40,118 nucleotides of DNA from a virus. The notes below the pieces were generated by a model, which saw only the letters and a program-made list of their open reading frames with translations, was not told where the DNA came from and did no database searches. This document shows, piece after piece, positions 6,041 to 17,562 of the stretch (within the stretch, counting starts at the first letter, position 1; each line of letters begins with the position of its first letter). Made by a program: the position numbers and the translations under genes. Location: positions 1 through 40,118 of the IMG/VR virus record IMGVR_UViG_3300045971_000059; one strand, given 5' to 3'.

Positions 6041-6271
6041 GATGTAGACCACATAGAGGAACGAGGGTCTGGCCCTGCTGGTCCACGGGTCAGGCGACTG
6101 CGCCTCTGCGATGATGGCAGACAACTGGGTCTTGATCTCGTCGAGATCCCCCTGCTGCTGCATTTTGAGCAACTCAAGTTGGGCCTTGGCTTTTTCCGTT
6201 GGATCGGGGAACAGCTTATCGATCAGCTTGCTGCCGATGCTGAAGATACTGGAGAGAGTGATCGGGTCCAT
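5852..6271 (-). CDS. Three-TM holin (Holin_3TMs / GTA-holin type)
   Basis: A 139-residue protein starting at 6271 in a TAATG overlap with the lysozyme stop, behind AAGGGG; longer upstream extension would run into the lysozyme gene. The N-terminal 70 residues are an amphipathic, charged helix (KAKAQLELLKMQQQGDLDE). The motif DPWTSRARPSFLYVVYILL leads into hydrophobic segments at about 73-92, 97-112 and 115-128. This is the layout of the Holin_3TMs family, known from phages and gene transfer agents. It should sit in the inner membrane and release the neighbouring muramidase. It is the last gene of the late operon. Confidence 0.87.
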   Translation of the reverse strand: MDPITLSSIFSIGSKLIDKLFPDPTEKAKAQLELLKMQQQGDLDEIKTQLSAIIAEAQSPDPWTSRARPSFLYVVYILLLWSIPMGVLAIFNPGAAATFTVGFKAWLGAIPDSILQLFGVVMTGYVMGRSWEKVKGAAK

Positions 6272-6744
6272 TAAATCCCCTTGAGTTGGTCGGCCAGGCG
6301 CCGAGCCCAGCCTTTGCCGAATACGTCCCACGTCGAGAGCTTGGTCATAAAGTCCAACCGCTGACCAATGAACCGGGCACAAGCCGATTCGGCATCAAGG
6401 CGCCCCACCGCGGCCTGGGTGAGCGGGCCAATGACACCATCATCTGCGGTGCCCACTGCCCGCTGCAGGAACCTGGTGGCCTGGCCGATACCTGAGTTGA
6501 CCGCAGCATCGAACAGCAGGAACGCCAGTGTCGGCGGCAGCTTGTCGCACTGGGCACGGTCCCAGTAGTCCCGCTTGTAGATCTCCTTGGCACCTTCCCG
6601 AGTGATGTTCTTGATGTCCACTGCCGGGTAGGCCCGCTTGCTGATGCCGAAGTTGGTCTCGCCGCCAGGGTCACGCGGGTCTAGGGTATACCCTCCCTCG
6701 TAGCCGATGAGCTTGTCGAAGCATTGGTCAAACCAGGTGGTCAT
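6271..6744 (-). CDS. GH108 endolysin (N-acetylmuramidase) with PG_binding_3 domain
   Basis: A 157-residue lysozyme. The N-terminal glycosyl hydrolase 108 domain has the catalytic Glu in GYEGGYT (E16) and the signature DPGGETNFGIS. The C-terminal third (about 88-157, AVGTADDGVIGPLTQAA onward) is the peptidoglycan-binding domain type 3. The protein has no signal peptide or N-terminal anchor, so export should depend on the holin encoded next (TAATG overlap). It overlaps the 822-residue ejection protein gene by ATGA. Full family length; no missing residue seen. Confidence 0.94.
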   Translation of the reverse strand: MTTWFDQCFDKLIGYEGGYTLDPRDPGGETNFGISKRAYPAVDIKNITREGAKEIYKRDYWDRAQCDKLPPTLAFLLFDAAVNSGIGQATRFLQRAVGTADDGVIGPLTQAAVGRLDAESACARFIGQRLDFMTKLSTWDVFGKGWARRLADQLKGI

Positions 6745-9209
6745 GGTGCGAGTGAGTTGATGTTTTCAGGGGTCACGATCAAACGGTTCCTCTGGGCAGC
6801 GCGGGTCTTCGGACCTTGGCCACCGGCAGACACCGGCCGAGGGGTCGACAGCTTCGCCTCAAGCTCGAGCAACTGGTCCATCAGGATCTCGCGCTTGCGG
6901 GCAGTCTCTTGAATGGCAGCGTTGCTCCTGGAGCGTTCGGCCAGCATATTGAACGCCTGGTCCTGCTCCCGCAGCTTTTGGATGGTGTCAGACACCCATT
7001 GACGGTCCATCATCTTGCCGGCGATGGCCTTGTCAGTCAGTCCCTTGAGCGCCGGGTCAGCGGCAGCCATGTCGACCTTGGTCTTGTTCCAGGAGATCCG
7101 TTCCTCGGGCGTCATATCGAACAACCGGCCACTGGCCACCTTGTCTGCGGCGCTGCTCATCGAATGACCTGTGCTTTCCAGCACCTGTATGTTCGGTGTC
7201 GCACCCTTGAGCGTTGAGTCAGTGGGAATCAGCTTGCCAGTGATCGGGTCCAAGTCGAACTGCACACCACCTCTGGCAGGCTGGCGAGTGGCTGCTGCCC
7301 GCTGCTCTGCCGCGGCCTGGGCCTGGGCTTCGGCGGCGGCCTGCTGCTGGTACACCCGAGCATCTTCTGCACGGAGAGCACCCATCTGGCCACCCACTGG
7401 GCCTTGGGACATCCCGATCTGGGCAGGGCCGGGTGCTGGGCCGGTCGGGGTTACCCGCGGCGGCACATCATTGCGCCCTGGCACCCAGTTGGGAATCTGG
7501 TCAGCGGGAATAACCTGCTGGCTCCAATCGTAGGGGACCATCTGGTTTGGTCCGTAGTTCATCTCGGCAGGACGCAGGTTATTCACTGGCCGATAGTCAG
7601 TGGGCACGGCATGGGCAGCCTGGTAACCAGGGGTTGCCATGCGCTTGGCCGCCACGCTGCTGGCCAGCTTGCCAGCCACGGCACCGGTGACAGCGCCAGC
7701 GATCGGAGTGCCAAGCACTGTACCTGCAGCGTAGCCAATCGTGCCGGCCACGCCAGAGCGGGTCAGCCCCTGCTGCCAGCCGGGCGAACCCTTGACGCCG
7801 ACCTGGGACACCTCGGGGAAGTTGGCCGCCACCTTGCCGATATCGGCGCCCACGCCAGACATGTTGCCCTTGCGCTCGTCGAGCATCTTGGCATACACCT
7901 GGGGGTCGACCTTGTTGGTGCTGTAGTCAATGGCCCGCTCGTGGTCATAGATCTGAGCCTGGCGCACACGGGACTTCTGGAAGTCGGTCAACGCCTGCGG
8001 AGTCGGGGCGTGTTCGTCGATCATCTTCTCCAGCGCACTGGCGATGCCCATCTTGGCGTCTGCGGCGGCCACGTCGGCAGGAGGCGGGTTGTTGCCCTTG
8101 TCCCGTGCCTTGTAGACGTTCTGGGCGTCCCGGCGCAACTGGCGAATGTCGTCAACGATTTGTGCCCCGCTGCGGCCTTCACCCAGCGCATCGAGGGTTT
8201 CCCCTACCAGTGACTGCACTGCGCTGGCCTTGGCCTTGCCGCCGATGGTGGCAGGCTTGTCCAGGGCGCGGATCGACGCCAGCACTTCCCCGCTGGCCTC
8301 CATCTTCGGGATGGCACGGATTACCTCATAGGGTTTGCTGGCCACGTCGAGAGCACTCTCGATAGCGGCCGAGTTGAGCTTGCCCTCTGCAGGCACACCC
8401 AAGTCATTCTTGACGATGTCGGTCCACTTGCCCTCATTGGCAGCAGCCAGGTTGGCGTTGACATCTTTGTTGCCGGTGAGCACCGAGCGCACCTTATTGC
8501 CGGTGGTCGGGTTCGACTCGGCAGGGTTCAGGGCGATGCCCATGTTGTTGGCTGCCTGCGCGGCCTCGATCTTGGTGGCATTCTTGTAGCTGTTGGCCAC
8601 ATTGGTGGCCTGGGTGGCCGCCTGCTTGGCCTTGATCGGGGCTTCGATGGCCTGACCAAGACGAGTGGCACGAGCAGCCTCAACAGTGGCGCCGGCAGCA
8701 TCTCTGACCACGGGCGCAGCAGTCTTCACTGCGCCAGGCGCGGCAAGACTCAGGCTCATAATCATGTTGTTCACATCAGCCTCGGGCATCCCCGTCTGCT
8801 TCGAGATCCAACCTGCACCCTTCTGGATGTTCTCCCCCACAAAGTCCAAGATCTTGCGGGATGCCTCCTGCTTGTACTGAGGAGTGTCGGTGACACCGAA
8901 CGCCTTGCCGAACGGTTGGTCCACCGCGCTGGTGGCATTGTTGGCAGTGCGAGTCGCCTCATCAGGGGTCTGGCCAAAGACTCGAGCCACTGGATAAGTG
9001 ACCTGTTGGACAACCGCCGGGATTACCCCACCGATCGTGTTGTCAGCCAGTGAGGCAACGCTGCGCCCAAACTTGGTCCATGCCCCAGCCTTTGGGGCAG
9101 GGGTGGGAGCAGCAACAGGCGCCCGGCTGGCCAAGTAGGCGTCGGGGTCGAATGCTACGGGAGCGGCAGCCTTCTGAGCAAGATATGCGTCTGGGTCAAA
9201 TCCGGCCAT
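6741..9209 (-). CDS. Large internal virion / DNA ejection protein (P22 gp16-like by position)
   Basis: An 822-residue protein, the largest after the primase. It opens with two copies of FDPDAYLA (residues 4-11 and 20-27), then has a hydrophobic Gly/Ala-rich stretch (around AGTIGYAAGTVLGTPIAGAVTGAVAG) that could enter a membrane, long Ala/Gln-rich helical regions, and a coiled-coil-like end. It is the third of three consecutive genes (255, 487 and 822 residues) in the order of P22 genes 7, 20 and 16, which encode ejected proteins that build a conduit across the cell envelope. Function is inferred from order, size and composition, not from clear homology. Confidence 0.75.
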   Translation of the reverse strand: MAGFDPDAYLAQKAAAPVAFDPDAYLASRAPVAAPTPAPKAGAWTKFGRSVASLADNTIGGVIPAVVQQVTYPVARVFGQTPDEATRTANNATSAVDQPFGKAFGVTDTPQYKQEASRKILDFVGENIQKGAGWISKQTGMPEADVNNMIMSLSLAAPGAVKTAAPVVRDAAGATVEAARATRLGQAIEAPIKAKQAATQATNVANSYKNATKIEAAQAANNMGIALNPAESNPTTGNKVRSVLTGNKDVNANLAAANEGKWTDIVKNDLGVPAEGKLNSAAIESALDVASKPYEVIRAIPKMEASGEVLASIRALDKPATIGGKAKASAVQSLVGETLDALGEGRSGAQIVDDIRQLRRDAQNVYKARDKGNNPPPADVAAADAKMGIASALEKMIDEHAPTPQALTDFQKSRVRQAQIYDHERAIDYSTNKVDPQVYAKMLDERKGNMSGVGADIGKVAANFPEVSQVGVKGSPGWQQGLTRSGVAGTIGYAAGTVLGTPIAGAVTGAVAGKLASSVAAKRMATPGYQAAHAVPTDYRPVNNLRPAEMNYGPNQMVPYDWSQQVIPADQIPNWVPGRNDVPPRVTPTGPAPGPAQIGMSQGPVGGQMGALRAEDARVYQQQAAAEAQAQAAAEQRAAATRQPARGGVQFDLDPITGKLIPTDSTLKGATPNIQVLESTGHSMSSAADKVASGRLFDMTPEERISWNKTKVDMAAADPALKGLTDKAIAGKMMDRQWVSDTIQKLREQDQAFNMLAERSRSNAAIQETARKREILMDQLLELEAKLSTPRPVSAGGQGPKTRAAQRNRLIVTPENINSLAP

Positions 9210-10672
9210 TATTTCGCTCCAAGTTGTGCTTTGATTTTAGCGGCTCTTGGATCGGAAGGGTTGGCATTTGCCCAGTCGAGGGCTTGCTTGTCTTGGGCTG
9301 ACACAGCGGCTGGCGCAGGGGTTGCGGCGCCCGGCCGGCCCTTCTGCCGTTGCTCCTTGAGCACCGCGGCGGCATCGCTGGAGGACTCGACGGCCGCCTT
9401 CATTTCGGCTGGCAGGACAACATCGAGGAACTCGGCAAACTGACCACCGGTCATGTTCTGGTTGATCACCTCGCGGATATGGTCCTTGTCCGACTTCGTG
9501 GCGATGCCCTTCGGATTGATAACCCGAGCGTAGGTGTTCACCAGCGCATTCAGTGACTGGGCCAGACCTGTCGCATTGGTGTCCCCCGTATTGCGGGCGA
9601 CATACATGCCAGCAGCGTTGAGCACCGGGTAATTGCCTGGGTCGACATTGTCCACATAGTGCTTGACCAGCGGGACCATCTTGGTGACCTCGGTCGCCGC
9701 GGCGGCCTGAGATGCACCCTGGGTGCCCAGTGTTCTGGCAGCCGAGGCCGAGCCGACGTTGTCGAAGCTCATCTCGCGCAGATCGATGCCCGGGGTGTTC
9801 TGGAGCGCACCCACGATGAACTTGGCATTGCGGCCATTGACCTTGTTGATGTCCACCCGCCCCTCGGCAATGGCCTGGGACAGGATCAGGTTCTCAGTCG
9901 GATCGAGTTGTGCGCCTTCCTTCTTCAGCCGGTCCTGGGCAACCTTGAGTTGGCCTTGGGAGACCTTGAGTTGGTCAGCCGAGGTATTGGCCTGCTGCTG
10001 CAGGATTGGCACCCGTGCAGTCTCGAACGGGGTCATGGTGGTCGTTTGCTCAGACCCTGGCACAACCGTGGCGGGACCACCGAATGCACCTGTGGAGATG
10101 GCCCGAACTGTGCCACCAAGGTTCTGAGGTGTGATGGTCGGCTTGAGGTCGGCACTCTTGGCGCCTTGAGACGCAAGGAACGACTGGCGCTCAGTCAATG
10201 GCATAGCAAGGAACCGGTCTGCAGCAGACAGCAGTTGCTGCTTCTCGGCATCAGAGAACAGCGAGTTCATCTGAATGTCTTCCTTGTACGCGGTGATGTT
10301 CGCATCCGATGGGTTTCGGCTGATGTCCCGTTGGGTCTGCTGGACAAACTCCTGCTTACCCTTCTGGATCTCCATCTGGGTCTTCTGGCCAGTGAGTCCA
10401 GCATTCTTCGCCTCGGTCACTGACTTCAGCGCCGCAATCCCGGGTGTGCCGAACTTGGTCAACCCCTCGGGCTTGTAGTCGGGACTCTGCATGTACTTCA
10501 GCATCCCATCATTAAGATCGTCGGCCCGCTTGGCAGACGACAACTGGTACTGGGCCAGCGCATTCTGGGTCACACCGGCCTGCAACTGCTGCATCTTGCC
10601 GTACTGGGCGAAGGGATCTGGGGGCGCCTGGAACTGGGCGCCTTGGGCAATGAGAGCGTTCAAATCTGCCAT
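9209..10672 (-). CDS. Internal virion / DNA ejection protein (P22 gp20-like by position)
   Basis: A 487-residue, Gln/Ala-rich, largely helical protein. The N-terminal region (KMQQLQAGVTQNALAQYQL) is typical of podophage internal proteins that start with a small soluble helical bundle. The middle has coiled-coil potential (QQQANTSADQLKVSQGQLKV). It has no signal peptide or TM segment. The stop overlaps the start of the 822-residue protein by TAATG, so the ratio of the two proteins is probably fixed by coupling. The role, ejection with the DNA at infection, is inferred from order (second of three) and composition. Confidence 0.7.
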   Translation of the reverse strand: MADLNALIAQGAQFQAPPDPFAQYGKMQQLQAGVTQNALAQYQLSSAKRADDLNDGMLKYMQSPDYKPEGLTKFGTPGIAALKSVTEAKNAGLTGQKTQMEIQKGKQEFVQQTQRDISRNPSDANITAYKEDIQMNSLFSDAEKQQLLSAADRFLAMPLTERQSFLASQGAKSADLKPTITPQNLGGTVRAISTGAFGGPATVVPGSEQTTTMTPFETARVPILQQQANTSADQLKVSQGQLKVAQDRLKKEGAQLDPTENLILSQAIAEGRVDINKVNGRNAKFIVGALQNTPGIDLREMSFDNVGSASAARTLGTQGASQAAAATEVTKMVPLVKHYVDNVDPGNYPVLNAAGMYVARNTGDTNATGLAQSLNALVNTYARVINPKGIATKSDKDHIREVINQNMTGGQFAEFLDVVLPAEMKAAVESSSDAAAVLKEQRQKGRPGAATPAPAAVSAQDKQALDWANANPSDPRAAKIKAQLGAK

Positions 10673-10675
10673 GAT

Positions 10676-11443
10676 TTACCCTATGTTGGCGAATGGACTG
10701 ACCGGCTGGGCTGGGCCTGGGGTGACTGCCCCACCAGCACCGTTTTGATTCATCCAGGTGTTGAAGTTCTGCTGGTTCTGGTAACTGCTGGCCATCGTGC
10801 CCAGAGCATTGTTCCAGGTGTTGCCCTGACCCATCTGGCTGGCAGCGTTGGCCTGGCCGGCGGCAGTGAGCGCAGCGCCAGCATTGTTGGCGTAGTTCTG
10901 GCCGGCCGCACCCAGTTGTTGGTTGACGGTCTGGCCCACGCCCGCCATGCTGGCAAGCCGGTTGTAACCGGTGTCTGACCGTGCCACGTCGGCGTTGTAG
11001 CCGGTGAGCGCACGATTGAAGGCATTGCCGTATTCCTGAGAGCCCATGTCCTGGCCATATCGAGTGGCAGCCCTGAGAGCCCCACCGGAGATCAGACCAC
11101 CTCGAGCAGCAGCCGAGCGGTCGAGAGCCTTCTGGCCTTCTGAGACGCGGAACGCATAGCCCGGGTCTTGGTTGGCATTGAACTCACTGGCTCCGAATTT
11201 GAATGCACCCGGCTGGGCAAACTCGCCAGCCTGCATCTTCCCCAGAGCGTTGACGCCGGCATCGCGCCACGGTGTCTGGTCCTCACGGGTCTGCATGTAC
11301 TGTTGGTACTGCATGTCCCCCGTGGCCTTGGCAGCATCTGCCTGGGTGTTGGCCGCAGCTTTTTGTCCTTGAGAACTGAGGGCGGCCCCACCCAAGATGG
11401 CCCCACCTATCAACCATGTTCCGGCACTAATTCCTGCGCTCAT
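10676..11443 (-). CDS. DNA transfer / ejection protein (P22 gp7-like)
   Basis: A 255-residue protein of a family common in podophages and often annotated as DNA transfer protein. It starts with a hydrophobic Gly/Ala segment (GTWLIGGAILGGAALSS, about 9-25) that looks able to cross a membrane. The conserved central block is ALDRSAAARGGLISGGALRA followed by TRYGQDMGSQEYGNAFNR. It is the first of three putative ejection genes and occupies the place of P22 gene 7. The start overlaps the stop of the cupin-SET gene (ATGA). Family recognition is good; mechanistic role is inferred. Confidence 0.82.
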   Translation of the reverse strand: MSAGISAGTWLIGGAILGGAALSSQGQKAAANTQADAAKATGDMQYQQYMQTREDQTPWRDAGVNALGKMQAGEFAQPGAFKFGASEFNANQDPGYAFRVSEGQKALDRSAAARGGLISGGALRAATRYGQDMGSQEYGNAFNRALTGYNADVARSDTGYNRLASMAGVGQTVNQQLGAAGQNYANNAGAALTAAGQANAASQMGQGNTWNNALGTMASSYQNQQNFNTWMNQNGAGGAVTPGPAQPVSPFANIG

Positions 11444-12306
11444 TTTGTAATCCTCTCTCTAGGAGAAAACCCGGCACCGTTCACACTCATCGCTTGCCGG
11501 TAGTCAACTGTAATTTCGTCACCGCTCTGGATATCCTTGATCGCCAGGGCCACCAGACCACCATCCTTGGAAGACGTGAACACGATATTAGCCTTGCACG
11601 AGTGATTGATCAACCACCCAGCAGGAGTTCTCTTGTCACCAATCCGAATGTCGACCACCTTGCCGCCAAGGGGGATGTCGACACAGGCGAATGTTCCGGT
11701 CCCGTGCAGATCTGATGGGGCGAACCTGACAAGGAGGGGCTCATCGGGAAACTCTGTCCGGTCATCCGTATTATCGACGAGTTGGCGCACAAGTGCCTCA
11801 TTGAATCCGTACTCGTCCAGAAACTTCTGGTAGTCCTCTTGGTCAGCGAGTCGCAGGTTGTTCTTGAGTTGCACGTTGTCCCGCCCACCAATGAGTTGGG
11901 AGTTGGTGGACTCGGTGATCTCGAACATGATCTTGTCCAGATCTGTCTCATCTCCGACGAGGTGGTATGTCGTCCAGACCGTCGTCTCCAGTGCATACCC
12001 GACACGCTTGGTGCCAGGCTTCGAGATGATCGTGTACGGGGCGCTGACCGTCTTCATCCCCTCGTCGGTGGAGACCATGAGCCGGCCCTGGGACACGGTA
12101 CACAGGTGCTCATGCCGATGGACTGCCCCAGTGAGCACCACGCCCGCTGGGATTGTCATCTCCCGCGCATAGATGCCGCCGGCGAAGTAGTGCCTGACAG
12201 GGCAGTCGACCTGGGGCAACTCATTGATCTTGTCCTCGAGCACGAAGACCTTCTCGAGCATGGTCTTCTCTGCGGGAGCAAACCCTTCACCGTAGGTCAC
12301 GTTCAT
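11440..12306 (-). CDS. Cupin-SET domain fusion protein
   Basis: A 288-residue two-domain protein. The start at 12306 is chosen because its ATG overlaps the preceding TGA; the longer frame to 12405 runs through that gene. Residues about 35-118 are a cupin-like domain (YAREMTIPAGVVLTGAVHRHEH, with H63, H65 and H67 as possible metal ligands). Residues about 191-270 are a SET domain: HGTGTFA for the cofactor loop, LINHSCKAN (N234, H235, S236, C237, N240) and GDEITVDY with the active-site Tyr at 269. SET proteins methylate lysines on proteins using SAM. The cupin half resembles an uncharacterised family widespread in phages; the SET fusion is unusual. It is coupled by ATGA overlaps on both sides to virion and membrane genes, so a virion protein or host envelope/chromosome protein could be its target (inference). 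Confidence 0.85.
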   Translation of the reverse strand: MNVTYGEGFAPAEKTMLEKVFVLEDKINELPQVDCPVRHYFAGGIYAREMTIPAGVVLTGAVHRHEHLCTVSQGRLMVSTDEGMKTVSAPYTIISKPGTKRVGYALETTVWTTYHLVGDETDLDKIMFEITESTNSQLIGGRDNVQLKNNLRLADQEDYQKFLDEYGFNEALVRQLVDNTDDRTEFPDEPLLVRFAPSDLHGTGTFACVDIPLGGKVVDIRIGDKRTPAGWLINHSCKANIVFTSSKDGGLVALAIKDIQSGDEITVDYRQAMSVNGAGFSPRERITK

Positions 12307-12674
12307 TGTGGACCCTTCAGGAACTGCTGCCATGCAGACAAGACCAAGAACCCCAGCACCCCGAGGCCAGCCCACTTGGCGCCGGCAATCCGCATCTCCT
12401 GCCAAAACTTGGCCTTCTCTTCGGCCTGCTTAATCACAAGCTCGTGATGGAGACGATGGCCAGTCGGGTCACCCTCCGGGAACGCGGATGCCATCAAACC
12501 AGCGATCGATTCAGCAAGCTCTGTGGTCTCCATCGTCATGTGTTGGGTCAGCTTGTCATCCAACGCTTTTTGGCTGACGTGGATCTGCTTGACAAGTTCC
12601 AGGAGGACTGGCATTGGGGAATCCTTACGACGGTCACTGAAACTATCTGCAAGAGGGCTGAAGTCGCTGCTCAT
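12303..12674 (-). CDS. Small C-terminally anchored membrane protein, unknown function
   Basis: A 123-residue protein with a charged, helical N-terminal part (coiled-coil-like from about 20 to 95) and a single hydrophobic segment near the C-terminus (WAGLGVLGFLVLSAWQQFL, about 100-118). I do not recognise the family. It follows the two-TM protein gene and overlaps the cupin-SET gene by ATGA. The C-terminal anchor is opposite to an i-spanin, which has an N-terminal TM, so a spanin role is not supported. It may be part of a lysis or envelope-associated set with its neighbour. Confidence 0.75.
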   Translation of the reverse strand: MSSDFSPLADSFSDRRKDSPMPVLLELVKQIHVSQKALDDKLTQHMTMETTELAESIAGLMASAFPEGDPTGHRLHHELVIKQAEEKAKFWQEMRIAGAKWAGLGVLGFLVLSAWQQFLKGPQ

Positions 12675-12677
12675 GTG

Positions 12678-12878
12678 TTACTTCTCCGCGAGGGCAGTGG
12701 TTGTAACCTCACGAAGTGCCAACATCAAAACCGGCCAGAACATGAGGGCGTAGGGGCGATACCACGCCGGGAAGTACTGGCTGAAGTAGCCACCTTGGGC
12801 GTCCATCACGGTAAGGACTGCACCGATGATAGCTGCCCAATAGGTCTTGGATTTGAGGCGTTGAATCAGGATATCCAT
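12678..12878 (-). CDS. Two-TM small membrane protein, possible second holin
   Basis: A 66-residue protein with two hydrophobic segments (about 13-27, YWAAIIGAVLTVM, and 41-56, RPYALMFWPVLMLAL) separated by a short aromatic loop, and a short charged C-terminus. The ATG at 12878 follows AAGGAC and is preferred over the upstream start in the tailspike gene. Size and topology fit a class II holin or pinholin, but another holin candidate (three TM) sits beside the lysozyme at the end of the operon, so this could equally be an antiholin or an unrelated membrane protein. Confidence 0.7.
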   Translation of the reverse strand: MDILIQRLKSKTYWAAIIGAVLTVMDAQGGYFSQYFPAWYRPYALMFWPVLMLALREVTTTALAEK

Positions 12879-12886
12879 GTTAGTCC

Positions 12887-14302
12887 TTAAACAGAAGTGA
12901 CGGTTTCCCATGCTGTGGCCCCACCGATGCGTAATTTGTTCAGCGTGGTATCAAAGTACATGGCACCCTTGACGTAAGCAGGTGCAGATGCCGTAGCCGA
13001 CATTCTTGGGCTGATCGTTCCATTACTGGTGATGTTGCCAAAAAGTTTAACAAGGCCGATTTGAGACGTGGCAGACGAGGCATTATCGTTGAAGCATTGA
13101 ATCCAAGTGTTTTCAGACAAAGCTACAAACGTGTATTCAAATACGCCAGTCGTAGTTAGATATCCAGCATTTATGAGGTTAAACGAACCCGGACCAGTTG
13201 ACCCAACCCGCACAATATTTCTGGATGCTGCCCCGGTAATTGTGACCTGTAGGGTGTAGGAGTTACCTTTGACCGTCGTTATCTTTTGTCCTGCACTTGT
13301 GCCGGCAGGCAATGACAAAATATTAGCAGCGATGCTTGCAGTCAAATATAAAGTCCAGATACTTGAATCAGCAAAGTTACCGTTCAGTACCATATCCTTG
13401 CCTGATGTGGCTGGGGCAATAGGTGCGTAATCAAGCAAGGAAGAATACCGAAAAGCTTGGCAGTCTAGATCGTAGATCTTGTTATTTTGAGGGTTGGCTT
13501 GATAAAGAGCACCCGCAACATTTTGCTCAGAATCTCCACCAAATATCGAAATAGCAGATAACGGACCCAAATTAATTCCGTACCCTGTGTTGCTCTCAGC
13601 CAAAGGCCTGATGATTGTGGTCCAAGCACTTTGGTTTACATACAGACCATGAAGGGTATTGTTTTGCACCAGAGGATGCGTGATGATCCCAGCGTTCGCG
13701 TTCGAGGGGAGAGTCGCATCGCCATCACTAATGTGTATTCCATACCGACCGTTAATCGAAGCCGACGGGCTAATCAATTGGAAACTATTTGCATTGATAC
13801 CAGATCCCGGAGTATCTGAACCTACTCGGATGCCGTCTTGTCCACATCCTTGCACATAAGGCTTATCCAAAATTACGTTGTTGGCAAGGATGGTATATCC
13901 GTTACCTGTGTTTCCAACGACCCCCACAATACCACCACGTTCGATCAAAGTGTTTGTAGCAGTAATCGTGACAAGATCAGCATGGACCGACGCGGCCTTA
14001 ATCAAATATGACTTTGGCAGTGACCCAGACGAGTTGCCGGGAGCACCCTGAAACGACCAGTACTCCTTCACTGATATGGTCAATGCCGCGTCAATGAGGG
14101 GAGTACCGTAAATGAGTAGAGCAGTTTTTGCGGTGACTGCTGCTGCTCTTGCGAGATTGAATGCGGTAGTGTCTACGGTAACACCGTCTCCCACCACCCC
14201 ATAATCTAACGTGGACACCGGAGCGCCAAGTATCATGGAATTGGTGAGTAAGTTGCTTATACTTCCTGTGACCATCGCTGGATCGACTTTTGTGAGGCTC
14301 AT
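12887..14302 (-). CDS. Beta-helix tailspike-like receptor-binding protein
   Basis: A 471-residue protein with a pectate-lyase-like right-handed beta-helix. The start of the helix domain is marked by LDYGVVGDGVTVDTTAFN, the usual D-x-G-A/V-x-G-D-G-x-x-D-x-T/D signature. Repeating short strands follow to about residue 290. After that comes a jelly-roll-like carbohydrate-binding segment (VLNGNFADSSIWTL onward) and a C-terminal region. It has no long N-terminal virion-binding domain, so it probably docks on another tail protein such as the 708-residue spike. The gene is visibly more AT-rich than the neighbouring virion genes, as expected for a receptor-binding gene exchanged between phages. Enzyme activity cannot be assigned. 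Confidence 0.8.
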   Translation of the reverse strand: MSLTKVDPAMVTGSISNLLTNSMILGAPVSTLDYGVVGDGVTVDTTAFNLARAAAVTAKTALLIYGTPLIDAALTISVKEYWSFQGAPGNSSGSLPKSYLIKAASVHADLVTITATNTLIERGGIVGVVGNTGNGYTILANNVILDKPYVQGCGQDGIRVGSDTPGSGINANSFQLISPSASINGRYGIHISDGDATLPSNANAGIITHPLVQNNTLHGLYVNQSAWTTIIRPLAESNTGYGINLGPLSAISIFGGDSEQNVAGALYQANPQNNKIYDLDCQAFRYSSLLDYAPIAPATSGKDMVLNGNFADSSIWTLYLTASIAANILSLPAGTSAGQKITTVKGNSYTLQVTITGAASRNIVRVGSTGPGSFNLINAGYLTTTGVFEYTFVALSENTWIQCFNDNASSATSQIGLVKLFGNITSNGTISPRMSATASAPAYVKGAMYFDTTLNKLRIGGATAWETVTSV

Positions 14303-17226: not shown

Positions 17227-17562
17227 TTACGTCACTTCACGGCCGGAAGCGCGGATGTTGATGCTGGTGGCAGTGCCTGCGATGGTGGAGATGAACCCAC
17301 TGGCCATGATCACCTGACCCACCAACTCGGGGAAAGTGTAGACCTCGGCCGGTTGCAGTGTCTTGGTCTTGGTGATCAAGTTCTGGTTGCCCGCAGTGTC
17401 GGCAGCAGTGACCAGGTTGACGCTGATCGTGGCGGCCACAGCACTGTAATTGGTGGCAGTGAACTTGTCCAGGATCGTGGTGACACCGGTGGCCGTGTAC
17501 TGGGTGGTCTGGGTTGCTTCCGCAATCTTCGCGGGGATAAGGACTTTTACGGTGACGGTCAA
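17227..17562 (-). CDS. Small beta-rich virion protein, unknown
   Basis: A 111-residue, Thr/Ala/Val-rich protein with alternating hydrophobic residues that suggest a beta-sandwich, and no signal peptide or TM segment. Its composition and its place between the tail hub and tailspike genes point to a minor structural or adaptor protein. I do not recognise the family; similar short proteins occur in other podophages as hypothetical proteins. Confidence 0.7.
   Translation of the reverse strand: MTVTVKVLIPAKIAEATQTTQYTATGVTTILDKFTATNYSAVAATISVNLVTAADTAGNQNLITKTKTLQPAEVYTFPELVGQVIMASGFISTIAGTATSINIRASGREVT

Follow-up and report, generated by a model that had tools for sequence, protein, structure and literature searches.

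The closest described enzymes are vSET of PBCV-1, an H3K27 methyltransferase, and the SET domain of MLL1/KMT2A. Both share the fold predicted for the protein studied here, and their GxG, NHxxxPN and ExTxDY motifs align with it, but they lack a cupin, have a longer SET-I segment and act on eukaryotic histones. On the phage side, the cupins of phrog_12032 and phrog_24280, for example in Ralstonia phage Firinga and Vibrio phage VPMS1, have the same cupin and, where examined, the same position before an ejection gene, but carry neither the linker nor the SET domain. No account of a phage cupin-SET protein and no paper on lysine methylation of podophage virions was found in the open-licence literature. 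By term search, neither a cupin nor a SET domain is mentioned in the papers on the phages P26218 (PMC4657236), PBR31 (PMC10975493) and Shewanella X14 (PMC9011153), and for a Stenotrophomonas phage an ORF with a SET domain is briefly noted (PMC9025141).

The window, the whole 40,118-nucleotide stretch analysed, is an entire IMG/VR record of a short-tailed phage. It encodes a portal, a terminase, a P22-type head protein, Hc3 and Ad3 connectors and an endolysin, together with DNA polymerase, primase and helicase genes. An earlier note, made from the DNA alone, had placed a cupin-SET fusion gene in the virion operon of a P22-like phage. Its coordinates proved exact, with the cupin recognised by phrog_12032 and the SET domain by PF00856, the head and tail genes are P22-like, and the gene lies beside that of an ejection protein (Table 1). 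The ATGA overlaps on both sides, read there as translational coupling, are present. SET was the only Pfam family above cut-off in the 288-aa protein, and searches against NCBIfam and the PADLOC defence-system library gave no match. In PHROGs, the phage cupins phrog_12032 and phrog_24280 match the N-terminal half, and phrog_34170 spans residues 23-274 and therefore holds the same fusion. The cupin-linker-SET architecture is thus already clustered in PHROGs v4, without function or description. Directly upstream of the fusion gene lie the genes of the holin-like and 123-aa proteins (12303-12911, minus strand), neither of which was found in the other fetched loci; a lysis gene seems to have been inserted here.

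Table 1. Positions in the window of the cupin-SET gene, its domains and motifs, and the neighbouring genes.
Feature	Position	Strand	Basis or remark
Cupin-SET fusion gene	11440..12306	-	288 aa; start ATG at 12306, stop ends 11440
Cupin (RmlC-like) domain, residues ~16-135	11902..12261	-	phrog_12032 E 7e-56; AF2 pLDDT ~95; PDB cupin matches
Helical linker, residues ~140-190, conserved D155, D158, D182	11737..11889	-	Alignment and model
SET domain, residues ~193-275, without SET-I insert	11482..11730	-	Pfam PF00856; KMT2A profile; Foldseek; GxG-NHx spacing
GxG SAM-binding motif (GTGTF, residues 202-206)	11689..11703	-	G202 and G204 in 96/96 fusions
NHS motif, residues 234-236	11599..11607	-	N 95/96, H 94/96 fusions
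GDEITVDY motif, residues 262-269, putative catalytic Tyr269	11500..11523	-	E264 and Y269 in 96/96
ATGA start/stop overlap of cupin-SET gene with upstream 123-aa gene	12303..12306	-	Sequence
ATGA start/stop overlap of cupin-SET gene with ejection gene	11440..11443	-	Sequence; -4 is the commonest spacing in relatives
First ejection protein	10676..11443	-	phrog_598 'DNA ejection', E 1.5e-38
Probable second ejection protein	9209..10672	-	Position only; without family match
Probable third ejection protein	6741..9209	-	Position and size only; without family match
123-aa protein, C-terminal hydrophobic segment	12303..12674	-	Sequence; without family match
77-aa holin-like protein	12678..12911	-	phrog_297 holin, weak, E 6.6e-4
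Endolysin	6271-6744		

The N-terminal part of the protein matched the phrog_12032 profile over residues 16-151 (E 7.3e-56), and the cupin model and its Foldseek matches to solved cupins indicate an RmlC-like β-barrel. The earlier note had pointed to an HRHEH cluster in this domain, which is not conserved. Among 96 fusions, 53 have Q and 41 have H at position 63, and 17 have H at position 65; H67 (89/96, near-invariant) is the only conserved histidine of the cluster. The metal-ligand set HxH...E...H, common in cupins if not present in all, was not found as a conserved feature of the 96 fusions. Because H63 and H65 are not conserved, metal binding by the cupin should not be assumed.

The SET assignment rests on profiles, motifs and predicted structure. 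PF00856 scored 34.2 bits (E 3.6e-8) against a Pfam cut-off of 22.4, and 48 of 50 aligned relatives matched it as well (E<=0.001). A linker-SET profile matched KMT2A (E 9e-12) and, less strongly, PBCV-1 vSET (E 2e-6), and the KMT2A alignment pairs SxIxGxGLF and GRYTNHSxxPNA...GEEITVDY with the KMT2A motifs. The protein has the GxG, NHxxxPN and ExTxDY motifs of SET domains, and LINHSCKAN and GDEITVDY, both singled out in the earlier note, are present in its sequence. Across the 96 fusions S198, G202, G204, E264 and Y269 are invariant, and N234 (95/96), H235 (94/96), N240, R226 and T227 are near-invariant; the loss of the catalytic tyrosine and NHS motif in relatives that would have spoken against a SET enzyme was not seen. 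At position 231 the window has W, as do standalone bacterial SET proteins such as that of Reyranella, and 93 of the 96 fusions have R. After the SET domain, the window's clade also has a C-terminal tail, YRQAM(S/R/H)VNGAG(F/I)xP (11440-11499, minus strand), that is missing in the other fusions looked at.

Structure prediction, suggested earlier as a check on both domains, gave predicted cupin and SET folds that match solved cupins and SET methyltransferases. The AlphaFold model of the whole protein, built on an alignment of 50 fusions with rows from annotated phage records left out, had a mean pLDDT of 87.6 and ~95 in both domains, and its PDB fold search returned solved cupins at the top and the MLL1 SET domain also among the matches. 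When the linker-SET part was modelled alone (pLDDT 91, pTM 0.84), all 50 of the top 50 PDB matches listed by Foldseek were SET/PR-domain structures, including MLL1, vSET and SETD8, with a TM score to vSET (3kma) of 0.66 by target length. The pattern of motifs argues for a SAM-dependent lysine methyltransferase, and we infer both activity and specificity for lysine.

The domain is unusually short between its motifs. In 92 of the 93 fusions measured, GxG and NHx lie 32 residues apart, compared with 59-79 residues in eight standalone bacterial SET proteins (only those in which both motifs could be located; a further value of 6 was a mis-hit and was left out). In the profile alignment, the 42-residue KMT2A gap is cut to ~4 in the fusions. 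The cupin-SET fusions lack a SET-I insert of the usual length, an insert that is common in SET domains but variable and does not define them. In known SET enzymes, the SET-I segment forms part of the substrate groove. Because it is missing here, substrate binding must differ from that of the known enzymes. The missing segment would also suit a SET domain that is a structural relic, a folded beta-clip module extending the cupin in the virion without catalysis, and beta-clip folds do serve as decoration domains in some phages. A structural role, however, does not require GxG, NH or the tyrosine at the catalytic position, all kept in 94-96 of 96 divergent sequences, and we regard such a relic as improbable. 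The SET motifs are kept under purifying selection, with a dN/dS of 0.03-0.27 for the SET part in pairs with unsaturated synonymous change (the window and its nearest relative, L010, were too far apart for the measure and were left out).

The earlier note knew of no described phage system of this type, and had proposed searching phage sequences for SET fusions of the cupin. The search found them, and uniqueness is not supported. Besides phrog_34170, a tblastn search of a phage collection turned up eight records that match 80% or more of the protein and represent five distinct GenBank phages (Rhodoferax phage P26218, Pseudoalteromonas phage PH1, Phage zth2-2 and the Podoviridae isolates ctfPj964 and ct1fd225). 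A profile scan of IMG/VR found at least 361 relatives, with full fusions in 79 of the best 80 loci, and a single-sequence scan of viral contigs found no match. Full-length relatives of 68% identity in another contig and of 57 and 53% in two Paraburkholderia genomes refute a chance motif match or an assembly chimera, for which nothing was found in favour and which we consider practically excluded. SET-less cupins were found in genome contigs of Pandoraea, Cupriavidus, Polynucleobacter, Acinetobacter and Xanthomonas. Two of 14 fusion-bearing phage contigs (the source records of L017 and L021) carry an integrase, and none was seen in the other twelve.

To place the SET domain in context, we compared 187 cupin loci, 96 with SET and 91 without, a ratio that does not reflect natural abundance because cupins with and without SET both served as queries. 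In none of the 187 was SET encoded by a separate gene next to the cupin. A phrog_598-type ejection gene directly follows the cupin in 131 of the 165 loci with a downstream gene (74/86 with SET, 57/79 without), mostly overlapping it or a few bases away. Ten of the remaining loci were examined, and in eight the next gene matches other internal-virion, ejection or structural families. Since these other families also follow it, the cupin is tied to the position before the first ejection protein rather than to one protein family, and this tie is independent of SET. In BPP-1-like and Alteromonas phages the cupin instead lies shortly before head-tail connector/adaptor genes; in Bordetella phage vB_BbrP_003 (locus L090, 3947-4405) it is an uncharacterised 152-aa protein between the terminase and a head-to-tail connector protein. 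A virion location of the cupin is suggested by gene position and by labels in sequence records, for example 'structural gene' in that of Shewanella phage X14; the basis of that label was looked for and not found. A 111-aa protein of the window (17227-17562, minus strand; IDKFTATN...PELVGQ...FIST...ASGRE) has 79 matches in the fetched loci and no PHROG match, and its gene is directly upstream of the cupin in many of these loci. An apparent enrichment of this gene upstream of SET-bearing cupins vanished on independent pairs.

Gene position also bears on the database labels of the cupin families, 'short tail fiber protein' for phrog_12032 and 'tail fiber adhesin' for phrog_24280, which together with some record labels and the setting among tail and ejection genes would make the fusion a tail-fibre or adhesin protein. 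Against this, a single-domain cupin of 120-150 aa is unlike a fibre, and it lies beside ejection/internal virion genes (P22-like, T7-like) or before connector/adaptor genes (BPP-1-like, Alteromonas). No paper supporting such a role was found in the open-licence literature, and we think it quite unlikely.

The earlier note had further suggested that the fusion reveals the function of the whole cupin family. Many cupins without SET hold the same gene position, so the SET domain is an add-on module on a virion-operon cupin, and the suggestion is not supported. In the cupin tree, the window belongs to a seven-member SET clade (support 98) nested in a 43-row clade that is otherwise SET-less (support 97). 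Parsimony gives seven gains or losses of SET, at least four of them forced by well-supported branches. AU tests rejected neither a single SET clade (p 0.20) nor a congruent SET tree (p 0.37); repeated gain or loss of SET on the cupin is therefore suggested as likely and stated no more firmly.

Collectively, these results suggest a virion-module protein with two working parts, and we consider it rather probable, from the sequence comparisons and models, that it is active in lysine methylation and docks to the ejection/tail apparatus through its cupin. The cupin would be a long-established phage protein, linked to how the ejection/internal-virion apparatus is assembled or acts. The SET part, an optional module at the C-terminus, would bind SAM and methylate a lysine on a protein brought close by the cupin, and the cupin-SET protein would presumably be expressed late. 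To look for a substrate, we compared lysine columns between SET carriers and other loci. None of the four proteins compared (first ejection, major capsid, gp10-like and gp4-like) has a lysine column that clearly follows SET. Two conserved lysines of the first ejection protein are rarer in SET carriers (12 vs 46% and 32 vs 71%). In gp10 and gp4, a small number of lysine columns did pass the threshold, in a test that ignores shared descent. Because no lysine of the first ejection protein tracks SET, the earlier proposal of ejection proteins as the substrate gained no support and is weakened; the methylated residue could belong to one of the two larger ejection proteins, too divergent for lysine comparison, or to the host. 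We tentatively favour a virion or ejection-complex partner methylated during assembly, give almost as much weight to methylation of a host protein, late in infection or once ejection has taken place, and leave the remainder to self-methylation or no methylation.

A host target would also change the meaning of the gene's position. The SET part would then be an active methyltransferase aimed at, for example, a protein of host defence, of the envelope or of the nucleoid, and the gene would lie next to the ejection genes for putative delivery along with the ejected proteins, or just to be expressed late. The four virion proteins show no substrate-lysine signature, and the scattered occurrence of SET over the cupin tree is what one would expect if its function were accessory and directed at the host. 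However, the gene is locked to its structural position and no match in the defence-system library hints at counter-defence, and we hold this account to be rather unlikely. Of the earlier interpretation, the cupin-SET fusion, its virion operon, the intact motifs and the predicted SET fold stand, whereas uniqueness, the function of the cupin family and the ejection-protein substrate found no support.

Compared with known systems, the NHS and GEExTxDYR core of the fusions is shared with standalone bacterial SET proteins (e.g. Reyranella, Bryobacterales), which differ in being separate genes with a longer GxG-NHx region and no cupin. Further counterparts are P26218 gp30, PH1 gp49 and the proteins of zth2-2, ctfPj964 and ct1fd225, which combine cupin, linker and SET domain in full; their genes lie in the structural block and, where there is annotation, adjoin ejection genes. 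They are ~30% identical to the window protein and are either annotated as hypothetical proteins, in one case with an automatic name taken from the PBCV-1 enzyme, or carry no annotation. We see an even chance that these fusions are protein lysine methyltransferases of a class that is widespread in phages and undescribed, whose minimal SET domain, without SET-I, is docked or delivered by a virion cupin and methylates ejection-machine or host proteins. If active, they would amount to a protein-methylation system that is common among phages and open to study in cultured environmental ones (P26218, PH1), for which relatives naturally lacking SET could serve as controls, and the missing SET-I segment would reveal how little of a SET domain suffices.
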